Shown here: positions 34,494 to 46,272 of the stretch, piece by piece
Numbering within the stretch: position 1 is the first letter of the stretch
Layout: each line of letters starts with the position of its first letter
From: Betaproteobacteria bacterium HGW-Betaproteobacteria-1
GTDB taxonomy: Bacteria > Pseudomonadota > Gammaproteobacteria > Burkholderiales > Methylophilaceae
DNA length: 64,000 nucleotides
Direction of reading: 5' to 3'
NCBI GenBank assembly: GCA_002842435.1
Contig: PHCX01000004.1
Location: forward strand, 306,209 to 370,208
Position numbers and translations under genes: made by a program
Notes under the pieces: model-generated
The model's database searches: none
What the model was told of the DNA's origin: nothing
The model's input: only the letters and a program-made list of their open reading frames with translations

Positions 34494-34988
34494 ATGGCAT
34501 CAGTGAACAAGGTAATTCTGGTTGGCAACCTCGGGCGTGACCCGGAAGTGCGTTATATGCCCAACGGCGAAGCCGTATGTAATTTCAGCATCGCAACGAC
34601 AGACAGCTGGAAGGACAAAAGCGGTCAGAAGCAGGAACGTACCGAGTGGCATAACATCGTCATGTACCGCAAGCTGGCGGAGATCGCCGGTGAATACCTG
34701 AAAAAAGGCCGTCCGGTCTATGTCGAAGGTCGCTTGCAGACACGCAAATGGCAAACCAAGGAAGGTCAGGACCGTTACACCACGGAAATCATCGCCGACC
34801 AGATGCAGATGCTGGGTGGACGTGACAGTGGCGGTTCGAATGCCAGCTATGACGATATGAACCAGGATCAGGATAGAGACCAGGGCTCGGCGCCAGCGCG
34901 TCAATCCGCACCGGCGGCACAAGCCGCCAAGCCGGCAGCGGCGGGCGGCTCATCGTTCGATGAGTTCGATGACGATATTCCGTTCTGA
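34494..34988 (+). CDS. ssb: Single-stranded DNA-binding protein
   Basis: OB-fold tetramer protecting single-stranded DNA. 164 residues: OB domain (1-110; [53 protein letters not shown]), a Gln/Ala/Gly-rich linker, and the acidic tip DEFDDDIPF that recruits partner proteins. Good ribosome-binding site (AGGGAGAAATC before ATG). Confidence 0.97.
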
Positions 34989-35013: not shown

Positions 35014-35040
35014 AAAAGCGCCTTTTTAAAAGGCGCTTTT
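35014..35040. terminator. Bidirectional terminator between ssb and cpaF
   Basis: AAAAGCGCCTTTT (35014-35026) and AAAAGGCGCTTTT (35028-35040) are exact reverse complements, so both strands give a GCGCC/GGCGC stem flanked by A- and T-runs. It serves ssb on the plus strand and the cpaF transcript on the minus strand, whose stop codon starts at 35042. Confidence 0.92.
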
Positions 35041-36293
35041 TATTTTGCGTGAAACAGCGTTTTGAGTTTCGGGGTGGAGGCAGGCGTCGGGCTGGTAATG
35101 AATTCCTGGCGGGAGACGTCGTAGCTGAAAAGTTCGTTAGTCACAAAGATATTGTCCCGCACGCCGAGTACTTCGACGATGGAGGTTATTTTCCGGTCGC
35201 CGTTTGGCATGCGGCTGATCTGCACCAGCAGGTCGATTGCGGCGGAAATCATTCTGCGCAGTGTGAGGTCGGATCCGCGGAAGCCGGCCAGTCCTGATAA
35301 CAGTTCCATCCTGAGCAGGGCATCCTCCGGATTGTTGGCATGAATGGTACTCATTGAGCCTTCATGCCCCGTGTTCATGGCCTGCAGCACGTCCATGACC
35401 TCGTCGCCACGAATCTCGCCCAGAATGATTCTGTCCGGGCGCATGCGCAAGGCGTTCCTTACCAGCGTTCGTGCAGTGATTTCACCTTCCCCCTCAAGAT
35501 TGCCCGGGCGTGACTCCAGGCTGACCACGTGGTTGTGGTTTAGCTTGAGCTCCGCGGCATCTTCAATCGTGACCACACGTTCTTTGGGGAGAATCGCCCG
35601 GCTCAGTAGATTCAATAATGTCGTTTTGCCGCTCCCGGTTCCGCCGCTGATCATGATATTGACTTTGCATTCAACGGCGTTCAGGAGAAAGTCCAGCATC
35701 TCATGGCTGAGTGTGCCAAAAGCTACCAGGTCATTGCCCGAGAATGGTTCCTTGCGAAACTTTCTGATGGAGACGCATGGGCCGTTCAGGGCCAGAGGCG
35801 GAATGATGACATTGATACGGCTGCCATCCGGTAATCTGGCGTCGACGATAGGGCTGGACTCGTCGATACGGCGGCCAAGTGGAGCGAGAATCTTTCTGAC
35901 GACACGCAATACGTGTTGGTCGTCGATGAAACGGTAGCCTGTTGGTTCCAGCACGCCGTCCTGCTCAACAAAAATGTTGTTTGCACCGTTGACCAGGATG
36001 TCATTGATGCTCTCGTCATCGATCAGACTTTGTAGCGGGCCGAAGCCGGAGAGTTCGTCGATCATCTCTGAAGTCAGGTTTTCAATATCCTGTGCATTCA
36101 CCACATAGTCAATCGAAGCGACGAACTTGAATACCTTGGCGCTGATGTAGGTGTTGACTTGTTCTTCACTCATTCCCGGCAGATGTACCTTGTCGGCCTC
36201 GATCTCAGCGATCAGATAGTTGTGCAGGCGATATTTGATGTCCTGGTACTGGCCGCCAGCCTTGGATGCCGGATGGTTTGTTGTATAGCGCAT
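35040..36293 (-). CDS. cpaF: CpaF/TadA-type secretion ATPase
   Basis: Hexameric type II/IV secretion ATPase of the Tad (Flp pilus) group. 417 residues. N-terminal all-alpha domain (about 20-100), NDILVNGANNIFVEQDG, SSPIVDARLPDGSRIN, Walker A SGGTGSGKTTLLN, Asp box TIEDAAELKL, Walker B RIILGEIRGDEVMDV and His box STIHANNPEDALLR. All catalytic residues look intact. Located three bases after the cpaE-like gene. No tadB, tadC, flp, rcpA or rcpC gene lies in the window, so the rest of a Tad machine, if any, is elsewhere. Confidence 0.92.
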   Translation of the reverse strand: MRYTTNHPASKAGGQYQDIKYRLHNYLIAEIEADKVHLPGMSEEQVNTYISAKVFKFVASIDYVVNAQDIENLTSEMIDELSGFGPLQSLIDDESINDILVNGANNIFVEQDGVLEPTGYRFIDDQHVLRVVRKILAPLGRRIDESSPIVDARLPDGSRINVIIPPLALNGPCVSIRKFRKEPFSGNDLVAFGTLSHEMLDFLLNAVECKVNIMISGGTGSGKTTLLNLLSRAILPKERVVTIEDAAELKLNHNHVVSLESRPGNLEGEGEITARTLVRNALRMRPDRIILGEIRGDEVMDVLQAMNTGHEGSMSTIHANNPEDALLRMELLSGLAGFRGSDLTLRRMISAAIDLLVQISRMPNGDRKITSIVEVLGVRDNIFVTNELFSYDVSRQEFITSPTPASTPKLKTLFHAK

Positions 36294-36296
36294 ATT

Positions 36297-37601
36297 TTAT
36301 CGGTTGCTCCTGAGCCGCTGCAGTGCATTTTTCAGTTGAGACAGGAGGTTGCCAGCCTGCTTTGGCCGTTCCATGGACTGCATGTCGGGCAGGGCATGAA
36401 CGAGCTTTTTAATCGCGCTGACATAACTGCTGTTTGGCATCTTGTCGAACATGGACTCGCCGGTATTGATACAGCTCAGGCGCAGTTGGCCGACGCCGGG
36501 TAAAGTGCCGCCGAGCGGCATGCCAAAGGATTCGGCAATACTGAGGGCGCTTGGTGTGGCATCGCTCAGGTGGCGGTCTATGATCAGCCTGCTATCCGGC
36601 AGCGATATCTTCTGTTGGCGCAGTGATTCAAGCAGGTCATGGTTGCGCTTGCAGCTGGGGATGGTCTGTTCTGCCAGCAAGAATGTCGATGTGGTCTGTG
36701 ACAGCGCGGACTTCAGCAGTTCGGGGTTGGTAATGCCGGAGAGGTTGATGAAGATGTGTTTGAAATGGCGCTTGAGTGCGTAAAGAATCAGATGCAGGTC
36801 TGCGGGCGCCAGTTCACTGTATTTTCTATCTCCGTCCGGCATGGAAAGCAGGCTGAGTCCGGAGTCATGCCTGGCGAATCCGGTTTCGATCAGTGTCGCA
36901 TCCAGTCGGGACCGGTTATGGATTACATCCAACAGGCTGAATTTCGAGGTGAGGCCCATAATCAGCATGATGTCGGCACTGGGGTTGCCAAGGTCCAGCA
37001 ACAGCGTTGGCCCGCGCCTTTGCATCTCCAGAGCCATATGTATGGAGAAAAGTGCATTGCCATCTCCCATACGGGAATTCAGTAGCGTGTAAATGTGCCC
37101 AGTCCCGGCAAGTTGGGGGCTGGCGGATATCATGCTGTGTTTCTGATGGCGCCTGATAACAGCCTGTACTTCATGGGCCGGTGTGCCAATCTGTATGATA
37201 TCGCGGGCACCGGAGCGGATGATCGGCAGCACTGTGCTCTGGTCCATGGTTTCAACCAGTGCGATCACGGCGAGTGAGGGTTTGATGCTGATCAGCCCTT
37301 CGATCATGGTGAGATCGGCATTGAGTTGTTGCTGTTTGCCGACCGTGGGCGGCTCCTTGTCCTGTGATGGCAGATGAACAAGGGCGACGCCTACATCTAC
37401 AGTGCCTATCAGGCTGGAGATTCTGTCTCTGTCGTCAGGCTCGACGAAAATGAGGTTTGAGACCGCGTCATTCAGGCCATACAGCCACGTTGAACAGTGG
37501 CTTTTATTCGTAATGGCTATACAGTTGTTTGTCGCTTTCATCAGTTCGACTTCCCCAAGTTCGATTTCTGAAAGGCATCGTCCGATGCTCAAGTTTTGCA
37601 T
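36297..37601 (-). CDS. cpaE: CpaE/TadZ-type pilus localisation protein with degenerate P-loop
   Basis: 434 residues: an N-terminal atypical receiver-like domain (about 30-160; VALVHLPSQ, LAVIALVETMDQSTVL, SGARDIIQIGTP) and a MinD/ParA-like domain (LLLDLGNPSADIMLIMGL, FSLLDVIHNRSRLDATLIE, GLSLLSMPDG). The expected Walker A (GGVGKTT) is replaced by NSRMGDGNALFS, lacking the invariant lysine and threonine, so ATP hydrolysis is unlikely. In Tad systems TadZ marks the pole or pilus site. Cotranscribed with cpaF. The C-terminus is a basic, Gln-rich tail. Confidence 0.85.
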   Translation of the reverse strand: MQNLSIGRCLSEIELGEVELMKATNNCIAITNKSHCSTWLYGLNDAVSNLIFVEPDDRDRISSLIGTVDVGVALVHLPSQDKEPPTVGKQQQLNADLTMIEGLISIKPSLAVIALVETMDQSTVLPIIRSGARDIIQIGTPAHEVQAVIRRHQKHSMISASPQLAGTGHIYTLLNSRMGDGNALFSIHMALEMQRRGPTLLLDLGNPSADIMLIMGLTSKFSLLDVIHNRSRLDATLIETGFARHDSGLSLLSMPDGDRKYSELAPADLHLILYALKRHFKHIFINLSGITNPELLKSALSQTTSTFLLAEQTIPSCKRNHDLLESLRQQKISLPDSRLIIDRHLSDATPSALSIAESFGMPLGGTLPGVGQLRLSCINTGESMFDKMPNSSYVSAIKKLVHALPDMQSMERPKQAGNLLSQLKNALQRLRSNR

Positions 37602-37766
37602 ATGTTCCCATGAACATGCTTATGGCTTGGGGCAAGGTACGCTGACTAGTATTGAAACCGGAGTTGCAGTTTTTTGTTGGTTCTTGTTAATGCCGCGTTG
37701 GTTCAAACTGGCACGTCCAGTTTGTCAGAAAAGTGCCGGTTGTCAAGCATGCTGGCGGTCTGCAAT

Positions 37767-37802
37767 ACAGGGCGGCATGGCCTTCCTCCATGTCCGCCCT
37801 GT
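37767..37802. repeat. Long hairpin between the OmpA-type gene and cpaE
   Basis: ACAGGGCGGCATGG (37767-37780) pairs with CCATG (37788-37792) and CCGCCCTGT (37794-37802), giving 14 base pairs with one bulged T. On the plus strand it is followed by TTCTTTTG; on the minus strand, the direction of the genes, no U-tract follows. It may separate the mRNA levels of the OmpA gene and cpaE. Nothing else is recognised in the 269-base gap 37602-37870. Confidence 0.55.
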
Positions 37803-37870
37803 TTCTTTTGCATGGCTTGTCTTTATTGCGGTTTCAGATATCCGCAAAATGTCCTCAGTGTATGCCTGGG

Positions 37871-38974
37871 TTAGAGTTTAGTCTGAGTTTCAATCTGCAC
37901 CACAACTCTTCTGTTTGGTTGCAGGCAGCTGATTATCCGCTCACTACGTGGGCCATCGCAAAATACGACAGGTTCGGTTGAGCTTTTGCCTATGGCATTC
38001 AGGCGGTTGCCGTCCACACCTTGGTTAATCAGGAAATCCCTGACCGCATAAGCGCGCCTGAGTGAGAGTTGCTCATTGATGGCGTCGTTTCCCAGTCGGT
38101 CTGTATGCCCCTCGATCGTCACGTTGCCCAGGCTTTTATTGTCGATAAGTTTTTGTGTGATCTGGGTTCTGAGGATGTTTTTGCCTTCGTCGGACAAGGT
38201 GTGTTCGTTAAGTTCAAACAATGTGGCAGCAAAGAAAGTGTGGGTTTCGATCTTTTGCGGCTCGGCTTGCACGATTTTTTCGACTTCAACAACACGCTCC
38301 ACAATTTGTGGTGCCTGTGCCACCGGCTCCATTTTGGGTTCGGGGATGATGGCGGGCTTGCCACCAAAGCGATAAAGCAGGCCGATATTCAGCTGGTTGT
38401 TGGCAATGGTGCCGTCCACCCCCAGCTCGCTGGTTTTGGCGTCTGCCCGGCTGATGATTCTGCGGAAATCGGCCTGTACACCGAACTGGTCATTGAACAG
38501 GTATTGGAAACCGGCACCAATATTGCCTGCCAGTGACGTATCGGAGCCGGAAACCTTGCCGCCGGGCAGATATCCCGGTGCTATGTTGTAGGAGATCCTG
38601 TTGTTGGAGGCGCCAAGGCCAGCCAGCACGAACGGTCTGAACTTGTCACGGGAGAATACATAAAGCGCATCAGCCGTCAGGTTGAATTGCTTGTAATCGC
38701 CGCCATCGAATGATGAGTGATCCTCGTCAGCCTTGTGGTAGGAGAGCCCGACCTGGATGTCGATGTTCTCTGTGAGCTCTTTGCCGAGCCGCAGATGAAG
38801 GCCGGGGCTGTCATCTGACGCATCAAGGTCTGCATCCGGGTAGATCAGACTGGCTCCGCCCAGCCCATACCATGACTCGGTACTGAAGCCATAATTTTCT
38901 TCAGCAGATACATGCCCGTTGGACAGTAGCAAAAAGGCAGCTGTTACGGCTGCATAAGTAAGTTTCAGTTTCAT
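37871..38974 (-). CDS. OmpA-family outer membrane protein
   Basis: About 367 residues: signal peptide (MKLKLTYAAVTAAFLLLSNG.. cleaved after VSA), an N-terminal eight-stranded beta-barrel (about 25-205; aromatic/alternating strands such as LHLRLGKELTENIDIQVGL), a Pro/Val/Glu linker, and a C-terminal OmpA domain (about 255-365; VTIEGHTDRLGNDAINEQLS) that binds peptidoglycan, with a cysteine pair in FCDGPRSE..SCLQPNRR. GTG 38983 is in frame, but ATG 38974 with CAGGG in front is preferred. It is first in the leftward group ahead of cpaE-cpaF and divergent from the repeat lipoprotein. Confidence 0.9.
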   Translation of the reverse strand: MKLKLTYAAVTAAFLLLSNGHVSAEENYGFSTESWYGLGGASLIYPDADLDASDDSPGLHLRLGKELTENIDIQVGLSYHKADEDHSSFDGGDYKQFNLTADALYVFSRDKFRPFVLAGLGASNNRISYNIAPGYLPGGKVSGSDTSLAGNIGAGFQYLFNDQFGVQADFRRIISRADAKTSELGVDGTIANNQLNIGLLYRFGGKPAIIPEPKMEPVAQAPQIVERVVEVEKIVQAEPQKIETHTFFAATLFELNEHTLSDEGKNILRTQITQKLIDNKSLGNVTIEGHTDRLGNDAINEQLSLRRAYAVRDFLINQGVDGNRLNAIGKSSTEPVVFCDGPRSERIISCLQPNRRVVVQIETQTKL

Positions 38975-39097
38975 ATTAATCACCCTGAGATAAAGTCAAA
39001 ACTCGGTCTGCAACATGCTATGACTCCTGGCGCCGGGGCTGGATATTCATGTTGTGCGGCACGTCAGGTAATAGCTCCAGTGATTGAATAATACATC

Positions 39098-39156
39098 AAA
39101 ATGAAAAAAATGATAAAAAATATTTGACTTTTTCATTTTCAAAGTGAAAAATATGA
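39098..39156. promoter_or_regulatory. AT-rich divergent control region with repeated TTTTTCATTTT/TGAAAAATATGA words
   Basis: Between the OmpA-type and lipoprotein genes lie AAAATGAAAAA (39098-39108), its complement TTTTTCATTTT (39129-39139) and TGAAAAATATGA (39145-39156). The latter two recur upstream of the receiver/HTH gene at 45774-45784 and 45769-45780 (complement TCATATTTTTCA). A possible -35 TTGACT is at 39124-39129. The stretch is much more AT-rich than its neighbours. Candidate operators; low complexity makes chance matches possible. Confidence 0.4.
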
Positions 39157-39191
39157 AACATATTAATTGTTCAACTCAATCGGGGCTAATT

Positions 39192-40961
39192 ATGGAAATC
39201 AAGAAAATCAGCAGGATGGTGGCTTTGGCGCTGGCATCGACATTTTTCCTTAGCGCATGTGACAGTGACGGCCTGGGTAGCGTGGTCAGGCCTTCGAGCA
39301 GCACCGTGGTGACAGGCGGCACGGGTGGTACAGATGGCACTGACGGTACAGATGGTACAGACGGGGATGGGGCTGATCTTCTGTTGGGCGGGGTGGTTGA
39401 CTCGTTGCTCGGGCCAGATGGCTTGTTGCCAGTCACCAGTGAGTCCGGCGATTCAACATTGCTTGATCCATTGATTGGGAAAGACGGTCTGCTGCCTTTG
39501 ACGTCAGGTAGTGGTGATGGTCCGGGCCCTTTGCTGGATCCGGTGCTGGGTCAGGATGGCTTGACAGATCAACTGGGTTTGACGGCTGAAGGGGATGGCG
39601 TGTTGGATCCGATACTTGATCCGCTTGTTGGTTCGGAGGGTCTCATTCCGCTGGTCAGTAGTGAAGGCGCTGCCGGTTCGGCATTGCTGGATCCCGTTAT
39701 CGGTCACGACGGCTTGCTGCCTTTGACCAGTGAAACAGGCGATGCCGGAATGGTCGACGATCTGGTCGGCCCTACAGGACTGCTTCCCCTGGTAAGCACC
39801 CCGGATGCCGTGGATCAACCGGATACCTTGCTTGATCCTCTGATCGGCAACAACGGTTTGTTGCCGCTGGTATCAGGCGAGGAGCCGAGTGCACTTGACG
39901 GACTGGCTGGTCACGATGGTTTGCTGCCATTGACTTCGGGCAATAATCAGAATCCTGGTGGCGACCAGAACCTGCCATTGGATGCGCTACTTACGCCTGT
40001 CACCGGCTTGCTTGGTGATGGCGTGCCGGACGCAGATGGGCTGCTCAGCCCGGTAACTGATCTGTTAGGCAGCGGCGTGCCTGATACGGGCGGCCTGCTG
40101 GCCCCTGTGACTGATTTGCTGGGTGGCGATACATTACCGACAGCCACACTGCTTGACCCTGTTGTCGGCTCGGATGGGCTACTACCTCTTACATCACCAC
40201 CAGGCGGTGAACAGGCGCTGCTGGATCCTGTGATTGGTCCCGAAGGCTTGCTCCCCCTGACAAGCGGCGGTTCCGGCACTGGTACTGATTTGCTTGCTCC
40301 TGTCACCGGTTTACTTGGTGGTGATGTACCCGATGCCGGTGGCCTGCTGGCCCCTGTGACTGATTTGCTGGGTGGCGATGCATTACCGACAGCCACACTG
40401 CTTGACCCTGTTGTCGGCTCGGATGGGCTACTACCGCTTACATCACCACCAGGAGGTGAACAGGCGTTGCTGGATCCTGTGATTGGTCCCGAAGGCTTGC
40501 TTCCCTTGACGAGTGGAGGAACCGGTGCAGGTAATGATTTACTGGCGCCTGTCACTGATTTGCTTGGTGGTGGTGTACCGGATGCAGGTGGCCTGATCAG
40601 CCCGGTAACTGATCTGGTAGGAGGTGGCTTGCCTGATACGGGAGGCCTGCTTGCCCCTGTGACCGATTTGCTGGCTGGCGGAATACCTGACACAGATGGC
40701 TTGCTTAGCCCTGTGACTGATCTGGTTGGCGGAGGCTTGCCTGATACTGGCGGATTACTGGCCCCGGTAACGGGACTTCTTGACGGCGGTATTCCTGACG
40801 CGGGCGGTGTATTGGCGCCTGTTACAGGCCTGCTGGGCGGTACAACTCCTGATACCGGCGGTCTGCTAGCTCCGGTAACCGACCTGCTGGACGGAAGTCA
40901 GCCGGATACCGGTGGCCTGCTGGCTCCTGTTACAGGCTTGCTCGGCGGTTTGCTGAATTAA
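39192..40961 (+). CDS. Repeat-rich lipoprotein (GLLPLTS and GLLAPVTDLLGG repeats)
   Basis: About 589 residues from ATG 39192 (GGGG seven bases before); the frame opens at 39144 but only this start gives the signal peptide MEIKKISRMVALALASTFFL with lipobox LSAC (Cys23, Asp at +2). A Gly-Thr-Asp stretch follows (GGTGGTDGTDGTDGTDGDG). Then come about eleven copies of a unit centred on LLDPVIGxDGLLPLTS, and thirteen copies of an 18-residue unit LLAPVTDLLGGGxPDTGG up to the C-terminus. No aromatic residues are seen in the repeats. Proteins of this look are often labelled collagen-like in Burkholderiales. Probably a surface or periplasmic structural/adhesive protein, and the likely partner of the TpsB gene that follows. 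Confidence 0.85.
   Translation: MEIKKISRMVALALASTFFLSACDSDGLGSVVRPSSSTVVTGGTGGTDGTDGTDGTDGDGADLLLGGVVDSLLGPDGLLPVTSESGDSTLLDPLIGKDGLLPLTSGSGDGPGPLLDPVLGQDGLTDQLGLTAEGDGVLDPILDPLVGSEGLIPLVSSEGAAGSALLDPVIGHDGLLPLTSETGDAGMVDDLVGPTGLLPLVSTPDAVDQPDTLLDPLIGNNGLLPLVSGEEPSALDGLAGHDGLLPLTSGNNQNPGGDQNLPLDALLTPVTGLLGDGVPDADGLLSPVTDLLGSGVPDTGGLLAPVTDLLGGDTLPTATLLDPVVGSDGLLPLTSPPGGEQALLDPVIGPEGLLPLTSGGSGTGTDLLAPVTGLLGGDVPDAGGLLAPVTDLLGGDALPTATLLDPVVGSDGLLPLTSPPGGEQALLDPVIGPEGLLPLTSGGTGAGNDLLAPVTDLLGGGVPDAGGLISPVTDLVGGGLPDTGGLLAPVTDLLAGGIPDTDGLLSPVTDLVGGGLPDTGGLLAPVTGLLDGGIPDAGGVLAPVTGLLGGTTPDTGGLLAPVTDLLDGSQPDTGGLLAPVTGLLGGLLN
40092..40589 (+). repeat. In-frame 249-base tandem duplication inside the lipoprotein gene
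   Basis: The stretch beginning GGCCTGCTGGCCCCTG at 40092 recurs at 40341, 249 bases (83 codons) later, with only scattered substitutions over most of the unit. Each unit contains one PVTDLLGG-type and two GLLPLTS-type repeats. The near identity indicates a recent duplication within an already repetitive gene. Confidence 0.8.
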
Positions 40962-40975
40962 TTGTCTGAATCTGG

Positions 40976-41006
40976 CAATCCCGGCGCCTGCTGGCAGCCG
41001 GGATTG
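40976..41006 (+). repeat. Perfect hairpin between the lipoprotein and TpsB genes
   Basis: CAATCCCGGC (40976-40985) and GCCGGGATTG (40997-41006) form a 10-base stem with an 11-base loop and no T-run. It suggests partial termination or mRNA processing within one operon rather than a full stop. Confidence 0.6.
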
Positions 41007-41036
41007 CTGGAGCCATATTCATAAAGAGCTGAGTTT

Positions 41037-42719
41037 ATGCAAATCAAGCATCTGTTGGTATATCTCAGCGCTCTCACGCTGCTGGCCATCAGTCAGCAGG
41101 TAATGGCCAATGCCAATCCTGAAGGTGCGTTGCCGGTTATCGAAAAGCCGCAACCTGCAAGTGAGCCGTCAGTCACGCTGGATACCCGGCAGGAAGTCGA
41201 TCCCCGGGTACAGAAGTTGCTGGCGTCCAGGATACTGGTCAAAACCTTTGAGATTCAGGGCGCGCAGGCAATTCCGCTGAGTGAGATTGACGTTATTACA
41301 AAGCCATATGTAGATACGGTGCATACGGTGCAGGAATATATCGACCTGGCCGGCGTCATTACCAAACTTTACCGTGATCGCGGCTATCCGCTCTCCTTCG
41401 CCTATATTCCTTCGCAGACGTTCGCCAATCATGTGGTCAGGATCGAGGTGATCGAAGGTTACATCGGCAAGCTTGTGCTCCAAGGTGATTTCGGCAATTC
41501 CGAAGACCGGATACGCGAGATCGTGCGTCCGCTGCTGGAAGAAAAGCCGTTGACTGCAGCCACTCTGGAACGTGGCACCGGACTGCTCAGGCTTGTCCCC
41601 GGGTTAAGTCTACAGGCGTATCTGCCGCTGCCAAAAACGCGTAACGGGGCTGCTGAAATGACGATCAAGGCAAGCCGTCGGTCGATCTCCGCAGTCGGCC
41701 GTTTTGAATCCCTGCGTCCGAAGACACGGGCAATCGTCAGTCTGCAAACCAATAGTCATGGTCCTGCTGCCGAGCAAATGAACTTTACGACCTTGCTGTC
41801 CGAGGATAATGAGGAATATTACGCAGTGGCCTATAGCCAACTGCTTGGCAGTAGCGGATTGAGATTCAGGGTGGACAGCTCGTTTTACAACGGTGACTCG
41901 GACGAGGATTATCCGGCGGGACTGCAAAGAGACGTGCTTTCCCTGCGGCTCAGCACATCACTCAGTTACCCGTTCATTGCCGACAGATATCAAACTTTGA
42001 TGGGCACGATCGGGATCAACGCCGTCAACTATGAAGACGAGATCCGCAGCAAGGAGACACAGCGCAGCATTACTTCCAGGACAAACTCCAGAGCGCTGGT
42101 AATGGCCGCAGACTATACGCTGACGCAGCCGGACAAGAGCCTGGCCTTGCAGCTTTCGTTGAGCAAGGGCCTGGATTCAATCGGGGCTGCCAAGAGCGTC
42201 AAAACCAATTTTCTGTCGAACTTCGTCGGCGAAAATCCGGCAGATCTCGATTTCGAGAAGGTGAATGTTGGCGCCACGTTGAGAAATGCATGGCCGTGGC
42301 GACTGGGAACGGCACTTTCTTTTGCCGGCCAATACAGTCCGGACTACGTGCCTGTTACAGAGCGCATACAGTTTGGTGGCTACCAATATGGACGGGCATT
42401 CAGGCCGGGTGTTCTCTACGGGGATTCTGGCTGGGGAGCCAGTGCCGAGGTGAACAGGTTGTTTCCAGTGGCTTTTGATTTTTCCTATTTCCAGTTGGTG
42501 GGTATCCAGCCATACGTGCTGGCTGAGATGGCCAGAACCTATCAAAAAATCGAAGTGACGAATATCGATCGGATCAAATCGCTGGCGCTTGGTGTGAGGT
42601 TGAGGACAGACGTACTCGGCGTGATGGATATGGCTTTGGCAAAGGCGCTCGGCAATCGCGATGAGAGCAACAAGGATGATCTGACTTTCAGTTTCAATTT
42701 CGGCTTTATGCTGAATTGA
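41037..42719 (+). CDS. TpsB-type outer membrane transporter (ShlB/FhaC/HecB family)
   Basis: Omp85-superfamily transporter of two-partner secretion. 560 residues: signal peptide (cleavage near VMANA), a proline-rich linker, POTRA domain(s) (about 65-150; VKTFEIQGAQAIPLSEIDVI, LYRDRGYPLSFAYIPSQTF, IEVIEGYIGKLVLQGDFGN), then a 16-strand barrel with the conserved L6-type motif FGGYQYGRAFRPG (VRGY/F equivalent) and a final FNFGFMLN strand. No filamentous-haemagglutinin-type TpsA is present; the gene follows the repeat lipoprotein, which lacks the TPS secretion domain. Ends in a shared hairpin with the convergent receiver gene. Confidence 0.92.
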   Translation: MQIKHLLVYLSALTLLAISQQVMANANPEGALPVIEKPQPASEPSVTLDTRQEVDPRVQKLLASRILVKTFEIQGAQAIPLSEIDVITKPYVDTVHTVQEYIDLAGVITKLYRDRGYPLSFAYIPSQTFANHVVRIEVIEGYIGKLVLQGDFGNSEDRIREIVRPLLEEKPLTAATLERGTGLLRLVPGLSLQAYLPLPKTRNGAAEMTIKASRRSISAVGRFESLRPKTRAIVSLQTNSHGPAAEQMNFTTLLSEDNEEYYAVAYSQLLGSSGLRFRVDSSFYNGDSDEDYPAGLQRDVLSLRLSTSLSYPFIADRYQTLMGTIGINAVNYEDEIRSKETQRSITSRTNSRALVMAADYTLTQPDKSLALQLSLSKGLDSIGAAKSVKTNFLSNFVGENPADLDFEKVNVGATLRNAWPWRLGTALSFAGQYSPDYVPVTERIQFGGYQYGRAFRPGVLYGDSGWGASAEVNRLFPVAFDFSYFQLVGIQPYVLAEMARTYQKIEVTNIDRIKSLALGVRLRTDVLGVMDMALAKALGNRDESNKDDLTFSFNFGFMLN

Positions 42720-42755
42720 GCATGCTCAATTCAGTGGTACATCCGTTTCCCACTT

Positions 42756-42835
42756 CCGGCTTCTGACTCAGGGCTGTGGGTGCCAGGTTGCAACCCCTGA
42801 ATTACCTGGTACCCGAGTCAGAAAGCCGGCTTTTT
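42756..42835. terminator. Long nested hairpin between convergent tpsB and receiver genes
   Basis: CCGGCTTCTGACTC (42756-42769) pairs with GAGTCAGAAAGCCGG (42815-42829, one bulged A), enclosing a second imperfect stem GGGTGCCAGGT / ACCTGGTACCC. Five T follow at 42831-42835 on the plus strand. The outer 3' arm includes the last codons of the CheY-like gene. Likely terminates tpsB and possibly both transcripts. Confidence 0.7.
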
Positions 42836-43201
42836 CTTCTTCAGCAAGGCTTCGCTCAAATCAACCAGTTCCTGCGGCTGAAAGGGTTTGATCAGGTAGT
42901 TGTTGGCACCCGAAAGTTTGCCTGTGATGCGATCCTCATCGGAATCAGCGCCTGTAATGAATATGATGGGCGTGTTTTCGAACTTGCTGGAGGATTTCAG
43001 GATATCGCAAAGTATGAACCCATTGATTTCCCCCGGCATCATGACATCCAGCAGAATCAGGTCCGGGTCTACTGACTCGATCAGTTGCAGGCCGGTTTGT
43101 GCATCGCAGGCCTCGAAAAATTCATGATTGTTGATTTCGAGCGACATTCTGATCAGTGCTCGAAGATCCGGTTCGTCATCAACGATTACTATTTTTGCCA
43201 T
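42818..43201 (-). CDS. Single-domain response regulator (CheY-like)
   Basis: 127 residues consisting only of a receiver domain: acidic pair in VIVDDEPDLR, phospho-Asp52 in ILLDVMMPGEING, switch Thr in IFITGA and Lys in YLIKPFQP. ATG 43201 (MAKIVIVDDE) is chosen; the upstream part of the frame to 43303 lies within the kinase gene. No output domain, so it must act through a partner. It follows the HNOBA-PAS kinase by 25 bases in the same operon. Confidence 0.92.
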   Translation of the reverse strand: MAKIVIVDDEPDLRALIRMSLEINNHEFFEACDAQTGLQLIESVDPDLILLDVMMPGEINGFILCDILKSSSKFENTPIIFITGADSDEDRITGKLSGANNYLIKPFQPQELVDLSEALLKKKKPAF

Positions 43202-43226
43202 GTCTGCTCCTTGTTGTTCTTGATGG

Positions 43227-45140
43227 TCAGATTGATTTTGGTATCCATATCGTGACTCGTGTACCAACACCCAGTTCCGAATCGACATCGACCTTGCCGC
43301 CATGAAACTCTACTATCTCTTTCACTATACACATGCCCAATCCGGTGCCGGGGATTTTCATTGTCTGTGCAGATCTGAAGAACGGATCAAACAACTTGCC
43401 CTGGTCGCTTTTTGATATGCCTGCGCCAAAATCGGTGATGCGGATGCCGACAAATGAGCCTGCGTCGGATTCCATTTCCAGCGTGTCAATGATGATTTCC
43501 TTGTCCTCACCTGAGTACTTGTTGGCATTGGATAGCAGGTTGATGAGTACTTGCGTCAATTTGTCGAATTCGCCCTGGATAGACAGGTCGTCGTCAGCCG
43601 CTATGATTTTGACTGTCCTCTTTTTGCAGTTGACCTTGAATTCGTCAAAGGCGGAATGGATCAGCTGATTGACCTTGATCGGTTTGGGCTTGAATTCCAG
43701 TTTGCCTTTCGCCTCGACCCGCGACAGATCCAGCAGATCGTTGATCAGTTTGGTCATGCGGGTTGCTTGCCGGTAAACATTCTGCAGAATTTCCCTGGTC
43801 TGCGTTTCGTTGTAGTCGCGATTGATCAGCAAATCGGTAAAGCCGTAAATGCTGGCCATTGGTGTTCGCAGTTCATGTGCGGCAGCCGACAGAAACTCGC
43901 CTTTCATCCGGCTCAATTCGTACTCGTGTGTGATGTCCTGGAAATAGTGAATGACTTTCTGGTTTTTTCCGGCGGCGTCCGGCACGATCTTGACCGAATG
44001 TCTGAGGATGCTCAGTTTCGGTTTGCTGATCTTGATGATGGGTTGATGCCCGGCTTCTGTTGATGGATTCTCGTGTTCATTCAGGTTGTTGATCAGCGAT
44101 TCAAAACTCTCCGCATCGATATTTTCCAATGTCTTATCATCGAGTCCCGTCATTTTGAGAAAGGCGTGATTCAGCTGGCTCAATTTGCCCTGTTCGTCGA
44201 AGGAGACGAAACCATCCGGGCTTAGGTCGAAAATGGTGTTCAGCTCGGCACTCAGTCTTTCGTTCAGGGACTGCGCCATTTTTTGCTCGGTAATGTCGCG
44301 TCCGATGGCGATGAAGTTGATGATTTCGCCATGGTCGTCGGCAAGTGTTCGGACGTCGACGTCGATCCACCTCGTTTCCTGCGCTACTTCAAACTCGATT
44401 TCTTTCTGGAAGTTGGTGGTAGCCCGTAATTCCTGTCTGACCTGCTTGAATTCGCTGGCAGGCATGTCAAGCAATATGCTTAATTCCTTGCTCAGTACAT
44501 CTTCCTGTGAGAACCCCGAGTTTTTGAGGAAGGCATCGTTCACCCATTCAATCACGCCCTGCGCATTGGCAATAATGATCCAGTAGGTGGAGCGGGAAAT
44601 GATGTGCGCCAGCTTGCGGGATTCAGCCTCCTGGTTCGCAAGCAGGTGGCGTATTTCGTTCAGTTGATCCTGCTGGGCAATCAGCGCATCAGAGAGGCTG
44701 ATTTTGCTTTTGGTGTGCGTATGCTGTTTATGCTGAAACAGGTCGTTAATGAGATCGTGATTGGAGAAATCTGTCGCATCGAGCCCGAGTTGATCAAGAT
44801 AGGCGCTGGTGTTGATCAGCGGTTTGAGTATAAAGATCAGCCTGTCATCCCCTGAGGGGAATATCCTGGCGCTGAAATCGATCTGGGTCTTTCTGTGACG
44901 TAGCGAGCAGATCTCGTTTTCCATGGAGCGCAGATAGCCCCAATTGAGCAGCGATGCCGGCGTGGTGATCTCGAAGAATTGATCAAGATAGGCGTTGGGA
45001 CTTATCCTCGCATCAAATTTTTTGCTGATGCCGGTGCCGGTCTGAACAAATTTGAATTCACGATTGATAACAAAGTGAAAAGGAAACAGCGCCGAGAGCT
45101 GCTCAGCCGATAAGCCGACCTTACTTGTTGCTTCCCGCAA
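43227..45140 (-). CDS. HNOBA-PAS-PAS sensor histidine kinase
   Basis: Soluble kinase of 637 residues. Residues about 12-140 resemble the HNOBA domain of soluble guanylate cyclases: FPFHFVINREFKFVQTGTGI at the start and GLDATDFSNHDLINDLF near the end. A signalling coiled coil (about 145-178) follows, then two PAS domains (about 180-290 and 300-410), HisKA with phospho-His422 in AAAHELRTPMASIYGF, and HATPase (LINLLSNANKYS, DFGAGIS, GTGLGMCIV). It starts at TTG 45138-45140 after GGGAG and overlaps the upstream receiver gene by 20 bases. No transmembrane helix and no H-NOX gene in the window. The ligand is unknown; redox or gas sensing through a partner is one possibility. Confidence 0.9.
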   Translation of the reverse strand: MREATSKVGLSAEQLSALFPFHFVINREFKFVQTGTGISKKFDARISPNAYLDQFFEITTPASLLNWGYLRSMENEICSLRHRKTQIDFSARIFPSGDDRLIFILKPLINTSAYLDQLGLDATDFSNHDLINDLFQHKQHTHTKSKISLSDALIAQQDQLNEIRHLLANQEAESRKLAHIISRSTYWIIIANAQGVIEWVNDAFLKNSGFSQEDVLSKELSILLDMPASEFKQVRQELRATTNFQKEIEFEVAQETRWIDVDVRTLADDHGEIINFIAIGRDITEQKMAQSLNERLSAELNTIFDLSPDGFVSFDEQGKLSQLNHAFLKMTGLDDKTLENIDAESFESLINNLNEHENPSTEAGHQPIIKISKPKLSILRHSVKIVPDAAGKNQKVIHYFQDITHEYELSRMKGEFLSAAAHELRTPMASIYGFTDLLINRDYNETQTREILQNVYRQATRMTKLINDLLDLSRVEAKGKLEFKPKPIKVNQLIHSAFDEFKVNCKKRTVKIIAADDDLSIQGEFDKLTQVLINLLSNANKYSGEDKEIIIDTLEMESDAGSFVGIRITDFGAGISKSDQGKLFDPFFRSAQTMKIPGTGLGMCIVKEIVEFHGGKVDVDSELGVGTRVTIWIPKSI

Positions 45141-45756
45141 CTTGTTTCTCCCGGTGCTTTTTTGTAATTATCGATGAGATGAATGCATCCAGTTGATCAA
45201 AACTGAGCGGTTTGAAGAACAGGGTCGCATTTCTGGGCAGTGGTCCGTACTCCTCGACTTTGTCGGCAGTCAAGCCGGTGATGATAATGACGTCAAGGTT
45301 TTTGAACTGCGGGGATTTTTCCAGGAATTTCAGCATGTCGTAGCCGTTGACACCAGGCATTGTGATGTCAGTAATCAGCAAATCCGGCTTATAGGTTGCC
45401 AGTTTTACCAGCCCGTCGAAGCCGTCATCTGCAGTGTCGAATTCCACCGGATATTTCCAGTCGGTGAAGAAGAATTTGAACATCTGCCGTATGCCTTCAT
45501 CGTCTTCAACCAGTAGCACATGAAAAGGCGATGGTGCGGTCGTGTATTTCTCGGTGCGCAGGGATTCCTGCCGTTTTTTAATGACTTCTTCGACAGACTG
45601 ACGCGATACTTTTCTGTGGCCTCCCGCGGTCTTCCATGCCTGGAGTGCACCGGACTCCACCCATAGCTGTATCGTCCGCAACGACACCCCCAGCATTTGC
45701 GCGGCAATGCGTGTCGAAATGTAAGTATCGGCTGGCTTATTAATGGTTTCTACCAT
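45121..45756 (-). CDS. Response regulator with N-terminal MerR/excisionase-type HTH
   Basis: 211 residues with an inverted domain order. An N-terminal winged-helix of the MerR/excisionase type (about 12-62; YISTRIAAQMLGVSLRTIQ, WKTAGGHRKVSRQSVEEVIK) is followed by a receiver domain (about 78-200; acidic pair in LVEDDEGIR, phospho-Asp130 in LLITDITMPGVNG, Thr in IIITGL, Lys in FFKPLS). First gene of the three-gene signalling operon and probably the DNA-binding output. AT-rich direct repeats lie directly upstream. Confidence 0.9.
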   Translation of the reverse strand: MVETINKPADTYISTRIAAQMLGVSLRTIQLWVESGALQAWKTAGGHRKVSRQSVEEVIKKRQESLRTEKYTTAPSPFHVLLVEDDEGIRQMFKFFFTDWKYPVEFDTADDGFDGLVKLATYKPDLLITDITMPGVNGYDMLKFLEKSPQFKNLDVIIITGLTADKVEEYGPLPRNATLFFKPLSFDQLDAFISSIITKKHREKQVAGSNK

Positions 45757-45768
45757 GGAGAAATAGTA

Positions 45769-45811
45769 TCATATTTTTCATTTTTTCCTGCCGAATATAA
45801 CCATATTTTTA
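45769..45811. promoter_or_regulatory. AT-rich repeats upstream of the signalling operon
   Basis: TCATATTTTTCA (45769-45780), overlapping TTTTTCATTTT (45774-45784), and a related CCATATTTTTATAATGG about 32 bases further (from 45801). The first two words recur between the OmpA-type and lipoprotein genes (39129-39156). They lie where the promoter of the HTH-receiver gene should be; a minus-strand -10 such as TATGAT overlaps them. Candidate autoregulatory site. The rest of the 255-base gap 45757-46011 holds nothing recognised. Confidence 0.4.
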
Positions 45812-46011: not shown

Positions 46012-46272
46012 ATGCCAATCTATGATTATCAATGCACAAGCTGTGGCTTCCGCAAGGAAGTCATGCGCAAGATCAGCGAGCCTAATCTGACGGATTGTCC
46101 CGAGTGCGGCAAGCCTACATTTGCCAAGCAGCTTTCTGCGCCAAGTTTTCAACTGACAGGTAGCGGCTGGTATGCCACCGACTTCAAGGACAGTGGCAGC
46201 AAAGCGGCAAAAAAGACTGAAGCAGCTGCAGACCAGGCACCGGCCTGTGGCAGCGGCTGCGCTTGCCATTAA
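46012..46272 (+). CDS. FmdB-family zinc ribbon protein
   Basis: 86 residues. The N-terminal zinc ribbon has MPIYDYQCTSCGF and DCPECGKPTF (two CxxC knuckles), then a low-complexity Ala/Lys tail ending in a second Cys cluster (CGSGCACH). Family members are putative regulatory or metal-binding proteins. Usually found just before aspS in betaproteobacteria, as here, though the DUF502 gene often between them is missing. Confidence 0.9.
   Translation: MPIYDYQCTSCGFRKEVMRKISEPNLTDCPECGKPTFAKQLSAPSFQLTGSGWYATDFKDSGSKAAKKTEAAADQAPACGSGCACH

Follow-up and report, generated by a model that had tools for sequence, protein, structure and literature searches.

Eight neighbouring genes in a 64,000-nucleotide stretch of the genome of Betaproteobacteria bacterium HGW-Betaproteobacteria-1 (contig PHCX01000004.1; the whole stretch is called the window below) are probably a reduced version of an adhesion locus that Burkholderiales carry in linkage with Tad genes, in which a TpsB-type outer-membrane transporter would carry a repeat-rich lipoprotein to the cell surface under the control of a linked signalling trio. 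We hold this reading, including the mechanism proposed below, with moderate confidence, and we call the locus reduced because relatives carry the TpsB and lipoprotein genes beside a full Tad locus. The genome (G000, with the window on its contig C10) belongs to the Methylophilaceae, is 2.5 Mb long and is given as 99.9% complete. A preliminary description of the window had placed the eight genes between ssb (34494-34988) and fmdB (46012-46272), and they lie there: cpaF, cpaE and ompA read leftward, the lipoprotein gene and tpsB rightward, and the closely packed genes for a helix-turn-helix (HTH)-receiver protein, a kinase and a CheY-like protein leftward again. The family assigned to each gene likewise stands, by Pfam domains and by profile or structure matches. 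The features are as follows.

35040-36293, minus strand: cpaF (CpaF1), Tad motor ATPase (Pfam T2SSE; CpaF structure matches; tree; dN/dS).
36297-37601, minus strand: cpaE/tadZ (CpaE1), with a degenerate P-loop (Pfam TadZ_N; TadZ structure 4lda; P-loop alignment; dN/dS).
37871-38983, minus strand: ompA-type gene, outer-membrane barrel and peptidoglycan-binding OmpA domain (Pfam OMP_b-brl and OmpA).
39101-39115, plus strand: ATGAAAAAAATGATA, predicted HTH-receiver site between ompA and the lipoprotein gene, one mismatch to ATGATAAAAATGATA (motif search).
39124-39154, plus strand: promoter-like boxes of the lipoprotein gene, TTGACT at 39124-39129 and AAATAT at 39149-39154 (by inspection only).
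39144-39158: GTGAAAAATATGAAA, a weaker copy of the motif (motif search).
39192-40961, plus strand: repeat lipoprotein of 589 residues (lipobox LSAC, GTD stalk, two repeat types).
40962-41036, plus strand: gap between the lipoprotein gene and tpsB, with a strong hairpin (-36.8 kcal/mol, z -4.7).
41037-42719, plus strand: tpsB, POTRA and 16-strand-type outer-membrane transporter (Pfam POTRA_2 and ShlB; profile; tree).
42818-43201, minus strand: CheY-like single receiver, 127 residues from the likely start at 43201 (Pfam Response_reg; start context).
43227-45140, minus strand: sensor histidine kinase with an HNOBA-like N-terminus, PAS domains, HisKA and HATPase (Pfam).
45121-45756, minus strand: HTH-receiver response regulator, N-terminal HTH_17 followed by a receiver (Pfam; family search).
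45767-45781, minus strand: ATGAAAAATATGATA, predicted HTH-receiver site 5′ of the regulator’s own gene, two mismatches (motif search).

Sequence comparison identifies the lipoprotein gene and tpsB as a conserved two-gene unit. TpsB carries POTRA_2 and ShlB domains by Pfam, matches CdiB and FhaC by profile and falls, with full support, in a lipoprotein/Tad-linked clade of the TpsB tree that stands apart from canonical TpsBs. Elsewhere in the same genome (L054 9147-15997, on G000:C1), a canonical TpsB is encoded with a 1715-residue TpsA bearing PF05860, the two-partner secretion (TPS) domain; this TpsB sits on the opposite side of the tree from the window TpsB, and its TpsA, used as the control for our TPS-domain scan, matched PF05860. 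Wherever we examined a complete linked locus, TpsB had a repeat lipoprotein gene next to it in the same direction, in the position of a TpsA, and no other candidate substrate recurs among these loci, a pairing from which we infer that TpsB exports the lipoprotein. The alternative is that TpsB exports some other protein or aids the folding of surface proteins generally, with the lipoprotein following the Lol pathway and the pairing reflecting co-regulation only. The missing TPS domain would suit this alternative, as would the Asp that follows the lipid cysteine of the lipoprotein, a residue that can favour inner-membrane retention in E. coli, but the constancy of the pairing speaks against it and we think it unlikely. 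Hairpins also lie between the two genes in G050 and G053 (L042 8924-9003; L044 8999-9084); across these three genera their sequences are unrelated, with a T run 3′ in two of the three, and the hairpin is possibly a partial terminator or a message stabiliser. Searches of open-access papers for TpsB in company with Tad, or with a lipoprotein as its substrate, yielded no description of such a pairing.

The lipoprotein most likely starts at the ATG at 39192, instead of the GTG at 39144 taken in the preliminary description. From this start, a lipoprotein signal with the lipobox LSAC and a short GTD stalk lead into a repeat-rich, low-complexity body in which repeats of two types, LLDPVIGPDGLLPLTS and LLAPVTDLLGGGLPDTGG (18 residues), are interleaved; past residue 45 there are 0 aromatic, 1 basic and 76 acidic residues. 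A Pfam scan of the protein gave 0 matches even at E 10, and neither PF05860 nor the collagen domain Collagen_mid (PF15984) was matched. Repeat number seems to vary, since the gene contains a 249-bp internal duplication (40092-40595) whose unit is present once in G055, where an N run follows. Among orthologues the stalk is swapped, for TP repeats in G050 and for collagen GATGPT repeats in G002. Profile comparison gave a nominal 99% probability for homology between two groups of the lipoproteins, over only 39 repeat columns, and we did not count it. Single-sequence AlphaFold2 models were too poor for use (mean pLDDT 37 for the lipoprotein and 33 for TpsB). In genomes of genus g3, two more repeat lipoproteins of the same style lie upstream of the lipoprotein-TpsB pair (L049 2618-5146; L050 2473-5059), with a glycosyltransferase-like gene after them in L049.

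Across 150 Methylophilaceae genomes, close relatives of the window TpsB occur in 12, from four genera, and the lipoprotein-TpsB pair is conserved in four genera of the family. One genome of another genus, G050, carries all eight genes and a complete Tad locus within ~26 kb, in the order OmpA, lipoprotein, TpsB, cupin gene, TadG, TadD, TadC, TadB, CpaF, CpaE, RcpA, RcpC, TadE, CpaA and the divergent trio, with Pfam support for the Tad parts. In genus g11 the trio adjoins lipoprotein-TpsB, the complete Tad locus is far off and OmpA is not linked; in genus g3 lipoprotein-TpsB stands alone, with no trio. The close CpaF clade is present in 21 of the 150 genomes, including all 12 of the 12 with a window-type TpsB. 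The ompA-type family is common (102/150 genomes); the locus-linked gene, whose G050 orthologue is 59% identical, is distinct from a second copy within the same genomes. The association of the eight genes, whose co-occurrence in other genomes the preliminary description proposed as a check, is conserved among these methylotrophs well beyond chance. That unrelated genes became neighbours by accident is extremely improbable: gene content does vary by genus, with no trio in g3 and neither OmpA nor Tad linked in g11, but the linkage recurs across genera and families, and both the supported trees and the common motif agree with it. A chance neighbourhood is refuted for two combinations, lipoprotein-TpsB-trio and Tad-TpsB-lipoprotein.

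Outside the family, we compared 12 Burkholderiales TpsB loci, drawn from ten genomes and two plasmid-collection records, reading the open reading frames of the Cupriavidus and Caballeronia loci directly. Cupriavidus metallidurans CH34 (L122) is one environmental carrier. Tad genes and repeat lipoproteins lie beside TpsB in 11 of the 12, the exception being the weakest match (G311, 27% identity), and PF15984, the bacterial collagen middle region, was found in 7/7 lipoproteins scanned, from six of the loci. The locus is of a known kind, a Tad locus with collagen-like lipoproteins being already on record, and the label ‘undescribed’ given to the system earlier does not hold: Burkholderia cenocepacia has a Tad cluster with a collagen-like lipoprotein and a 561-residue outer-membrane protein (PMC2753556, PMC10224339). 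Its flp cluster comprises the operons BCAL1524-1520 and BCAL1525-1537 (PMC2753556), and BCAL1520-1537 is the counterpart described best, with repeat-rich lipoproteins (BCAL1523/1524) and the 561-residue protein by a Tad/Flp operon (PMC2753556, PMC10224339, PMC7970998, PMC10303873). The lipoproteins and flp genes are induced together upon contact with host-membrane vesicles (PMC7970998), and outer-membrane vesicles contain BCAL1524, which promotes autoaggregation (PMC10303873). The 561-residue protein, BCAL1522, is annotated as heme utilization-related, and we found no literature text identifying it as a TpsB. The same sizes and spacings recur at the G426 locus (L124; TpsB of 561 residues, gaps of 145 and 41 bp), and BCAL1522 is very probably a TpsB of this clade, judging by its length and the spacing of its neighbours. 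B. cenocepacia differs in having the full Tad operon, Collagen_mid lipoproteins and a cluster affected by quorum sensing (CepR), whereas our locus has kept only CpaE/CpaF, encodes a lipoprotein in which Pfam recognises no domain, and is linked to a two-component trio that has a DNA site of its own.

CpaF and CpaE/TadZ are clear members of the Tad/Flp pilus system, but the remaining Tad parts are missing at the site. TpsB has the POTRA and barrel of two-partner secretion (type Vb; FhaC, CdiB, ShlB), but it belongs to its own clade and its partner is a lipoprotein lacking PF05860. The lipoprotein shares a lipoprotein signal and repeats with bacterial collagen-like lipoproteins but lacks Collagen_mid. 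PprAB of Pseudomonas aeruginosa (PMC3510237) is similar, by description, in placing Flp/Tad pili and a secreted adhesin (BapA) under two-component control, but there the adhesin is another one, exported by type I secretion, and the window regulator has an N-terminal HTH_17.

The preliminary description had noted a dead P-loop in CpaE. The degeneracy is there, but it is family-wide, being shared by all Methylophilaceae CpaE proteins compared, complete Tad loci included, and a deviant Walker A is a known trait of TadZ (PMC13170226). The P-loop is therefore not anomalous, and we rejected it as an indication of a changed function. CpaE1 matches TadZ (4lda) and a ParA-family ATPase (3ea0). CpaF1 has intact Walker A and B motifs by inspection, matches solved CpaF structures at E ~4e-107, and groups in the CpaF tree with the locus-linked CpaF of G050 (100/100), apart from the second CpaF of G055, G064 and G045; on these sequence grounds it belongs to the locus-linked Tad lineage. 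The ratio of nonsynonymous to synonymous divergence (dN/dS) is 0.022 and 0.050 for CpaF1 and 0.037 and 0.15 for CpaE1, and CpaF changes between two orphan-bearing genomes are 2 nonsynonymous and 27 synonymous. Both genes are maintained under purifying selection and are not decaying.

No Tad platform gene (TadB/TadC), secretin, RcpC, TadE, pilin or prepilin peptidase was found between ssb and fmdB. Part of a second Tad set lies on the same contig ~130 kb before the window, where flp and cpaA begin at C10:175565 and are 97% identical to G055. A search for TadB/TadC in this genome found neither; however, the sequence next to flp is masked as N over 65 kb or more, starting at 176001, and we accordingly dropped gene loss as an account of their absence. 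The N run begins just inside cpaA (176001) and ends between 241000 and 250000 (L099, L100, L103, L104). Among sister genomes, G064 has a complete second Tad set between ssb and cpaF1 (L081 7131-17700), G055 and G045 have theirs next to a ribonucleotide reductase gene (L083; L088), and G055 shares the orphan layout of the window, with cpaF1 directly beside ssb. Of the two suggestions made earlier for CpaE/CpaF, the one of a distant Tad locus gains from flp/cpaA here and from the complete sets of sister genomes; the other was a new role.

Such a new role, in which CpaE1/CpaF1 would power or position the lipoprotein-TpsB machinery and not a pilus, is quite improbable in our view. The orphan layout in two genomes, the strong purifying selection and the lack of any motif or Tad platform gene at the site would fit it, but TpsB transport has no known need of a cytoplasmic ATPase, and lipoprotein-TpsB occurs in g11 and g3 with no linked CpaE/CpaF. 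A pilus role is the simplest, because this genome encodes Flp and CpaA, and G055 and G064 have the second set in full. It is also decidedly unlikely that the two genes are a remnant of a lost linked Tad set with no part in a pilus, leaving the lipoprotein, TpsB, OmpA and the trio as the sole working part: some ten Tad genes of the G050 site are absent from the window site, and sister genomes encode another CpaE/CpaF within their second set, but both genes are intact and their dN/dS is 0.022-0.15.

A conserved DNA site, as read from sequence, marks the lipoprotein/OmpA and HTH-receiver promoters. The words previously noticed as shared by two control regions, that of ompA/lipoprotein and that of the HTH-receiver gene, were borne out, with 12 nine-mers in common against 1.1 expected and 0/100 dinucleotide shuffles reaching 12. 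The motif ATGATAAAAATGATA is a direct repeat with a 9-bp period; in three genera (g1, g22 and g11), it or a near match lies 5′ of the lipoprotein gene as well as of the HTH-receiver gene. At up to one mismatch, the readable part of the window genome has a single match, at the lipoprotein promoter; G050 has 3/3 of its matches within the locus; and G030, G010, G062 and G053 together have 21, of which 10 are in the locus, where chance would give a small fraction of one. The kinase-less genomes G002, G025, G011, G016, G017 and G043 have no match. In G030, a two-mismatch copy lies 5′ of the distant flp operon. The motif travels with the regulator, because copies flank an HTH-receiver homologue (47-48% identical) in G014 and its same-genus sister G033, which lack lipoprotein-TpsB; they lie 5′ of the homologue and of the next gene (L168 7191, 8105; L171 9730, 10645), which we read as bactofilin-like. 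We propose that the HTH-receiver controls the lipoprotein, OmpA and its own gene. The reading of a conserved surface locus whose trio is linked to the repeat protein, and probably controls it, agrees with the preliminary description. The predicted site lies just upstream of the -35-like box in the window and downstream of TTGACA in g11, so that its placement does not distinguish activation from repression.

The catalytic residues and phosphoacceptor sites of the kinase and receivers look intact by inspection, with HisKA and HATPase present by Pfam. The kinase orthologue is 59% identical in G050 and 38-39% identical in g11, and the CheY-like gene, which probably starts at 43201 with GGAG 5′ of the start, is conserved in g1, g11 and g22. 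The ‘gas/redox-type’ label attached to the trio has its sole basis in the HNOBA and PAS domain labels. The kinase gene and fmdB have a synonymous divergence (dS) of ~0.44 from G055 (L053), and neighbouring genes 0.07-0.18, which suggests recombination. In G064, similarity to the window stops shortly past tpsB (window 42836, L009 2584), a transposase-like gene and then ribonucleotide reductase genes follow, and a search of that genome did not find the trio. The HTH-receiver gene of G062 (C1:1359159-1359747) is split into two overlapping frames, by a frameshift or a sequencing error.

Taken as an adhesion locus, the cluster would work as follows. A cytoplasmic signal would lead the kinase, with its CheY-like partner, to alter phosphorylation of the HTH-receiver, which would act at its DNA site to control the lipoprotein gene, the divergent ompA and its own gene. 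The lipoprotein would cross the inner membrane by Sec, be lipidated and reach the cell surface by way of TpsB; there its long repeats, which are free of aromatic residues, may promote cell-cell or surface adhesion, and OmpA may tie the structure to peptidoglycan. On the simplest view, CpaE/CpaF would offer a second choice of motor and positioning proteins to Tad parts whose genes lie elsewhere. The outcome would be adhesion or aggregation, and the B. cenocepacia findings lend the account support by analogy. Some results weigh against this account. The lipoprotein has neither a Pfam match nor a TPS domain, so that its export through TpsB rests on gene pairing; kinase-less genomes have scattered motif matches (four in G018, six in G014 and one in G019); the window genome has no motif copy 5′ of cpaE1 or flp; the trees are confined to CpaF and TpsB; and the co-occurrence of TpsB with the close CpaF clade (Fisher 1.6e-12 by genome, 0.003 by genus) carries P values that overstate independence, given the shared ancestry of the genomes. 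A bolder formulation, which we regard as doubtful, is a non-canonical Burkholderiales two-partner system whose TpsB clade exports TPS-less surface lipoproteins and works with Tad pili, and whose exporter module here kept CpaE/CpaF after pilus loss.

Judged by the open-access literature, the new elements are a distinct TpsB clade paired with such lipoproteins across families, a two-component regulon with a predicted site in Methylophilaceae, and a lineage that keeps only the motor pair at the locus. For Burkholderiales, a poorly annotated flp-adjacent outer-membrane gene (BCAL1522, by inference) would become a probable TpsB with the adjacent collagen-like lipoprotein as its probable substrate. 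A regulator and its DNA site are also predicted here in a form open to a binding assay, and the locus is an example from nature of Tad motor genes retained without linked pilus genes.

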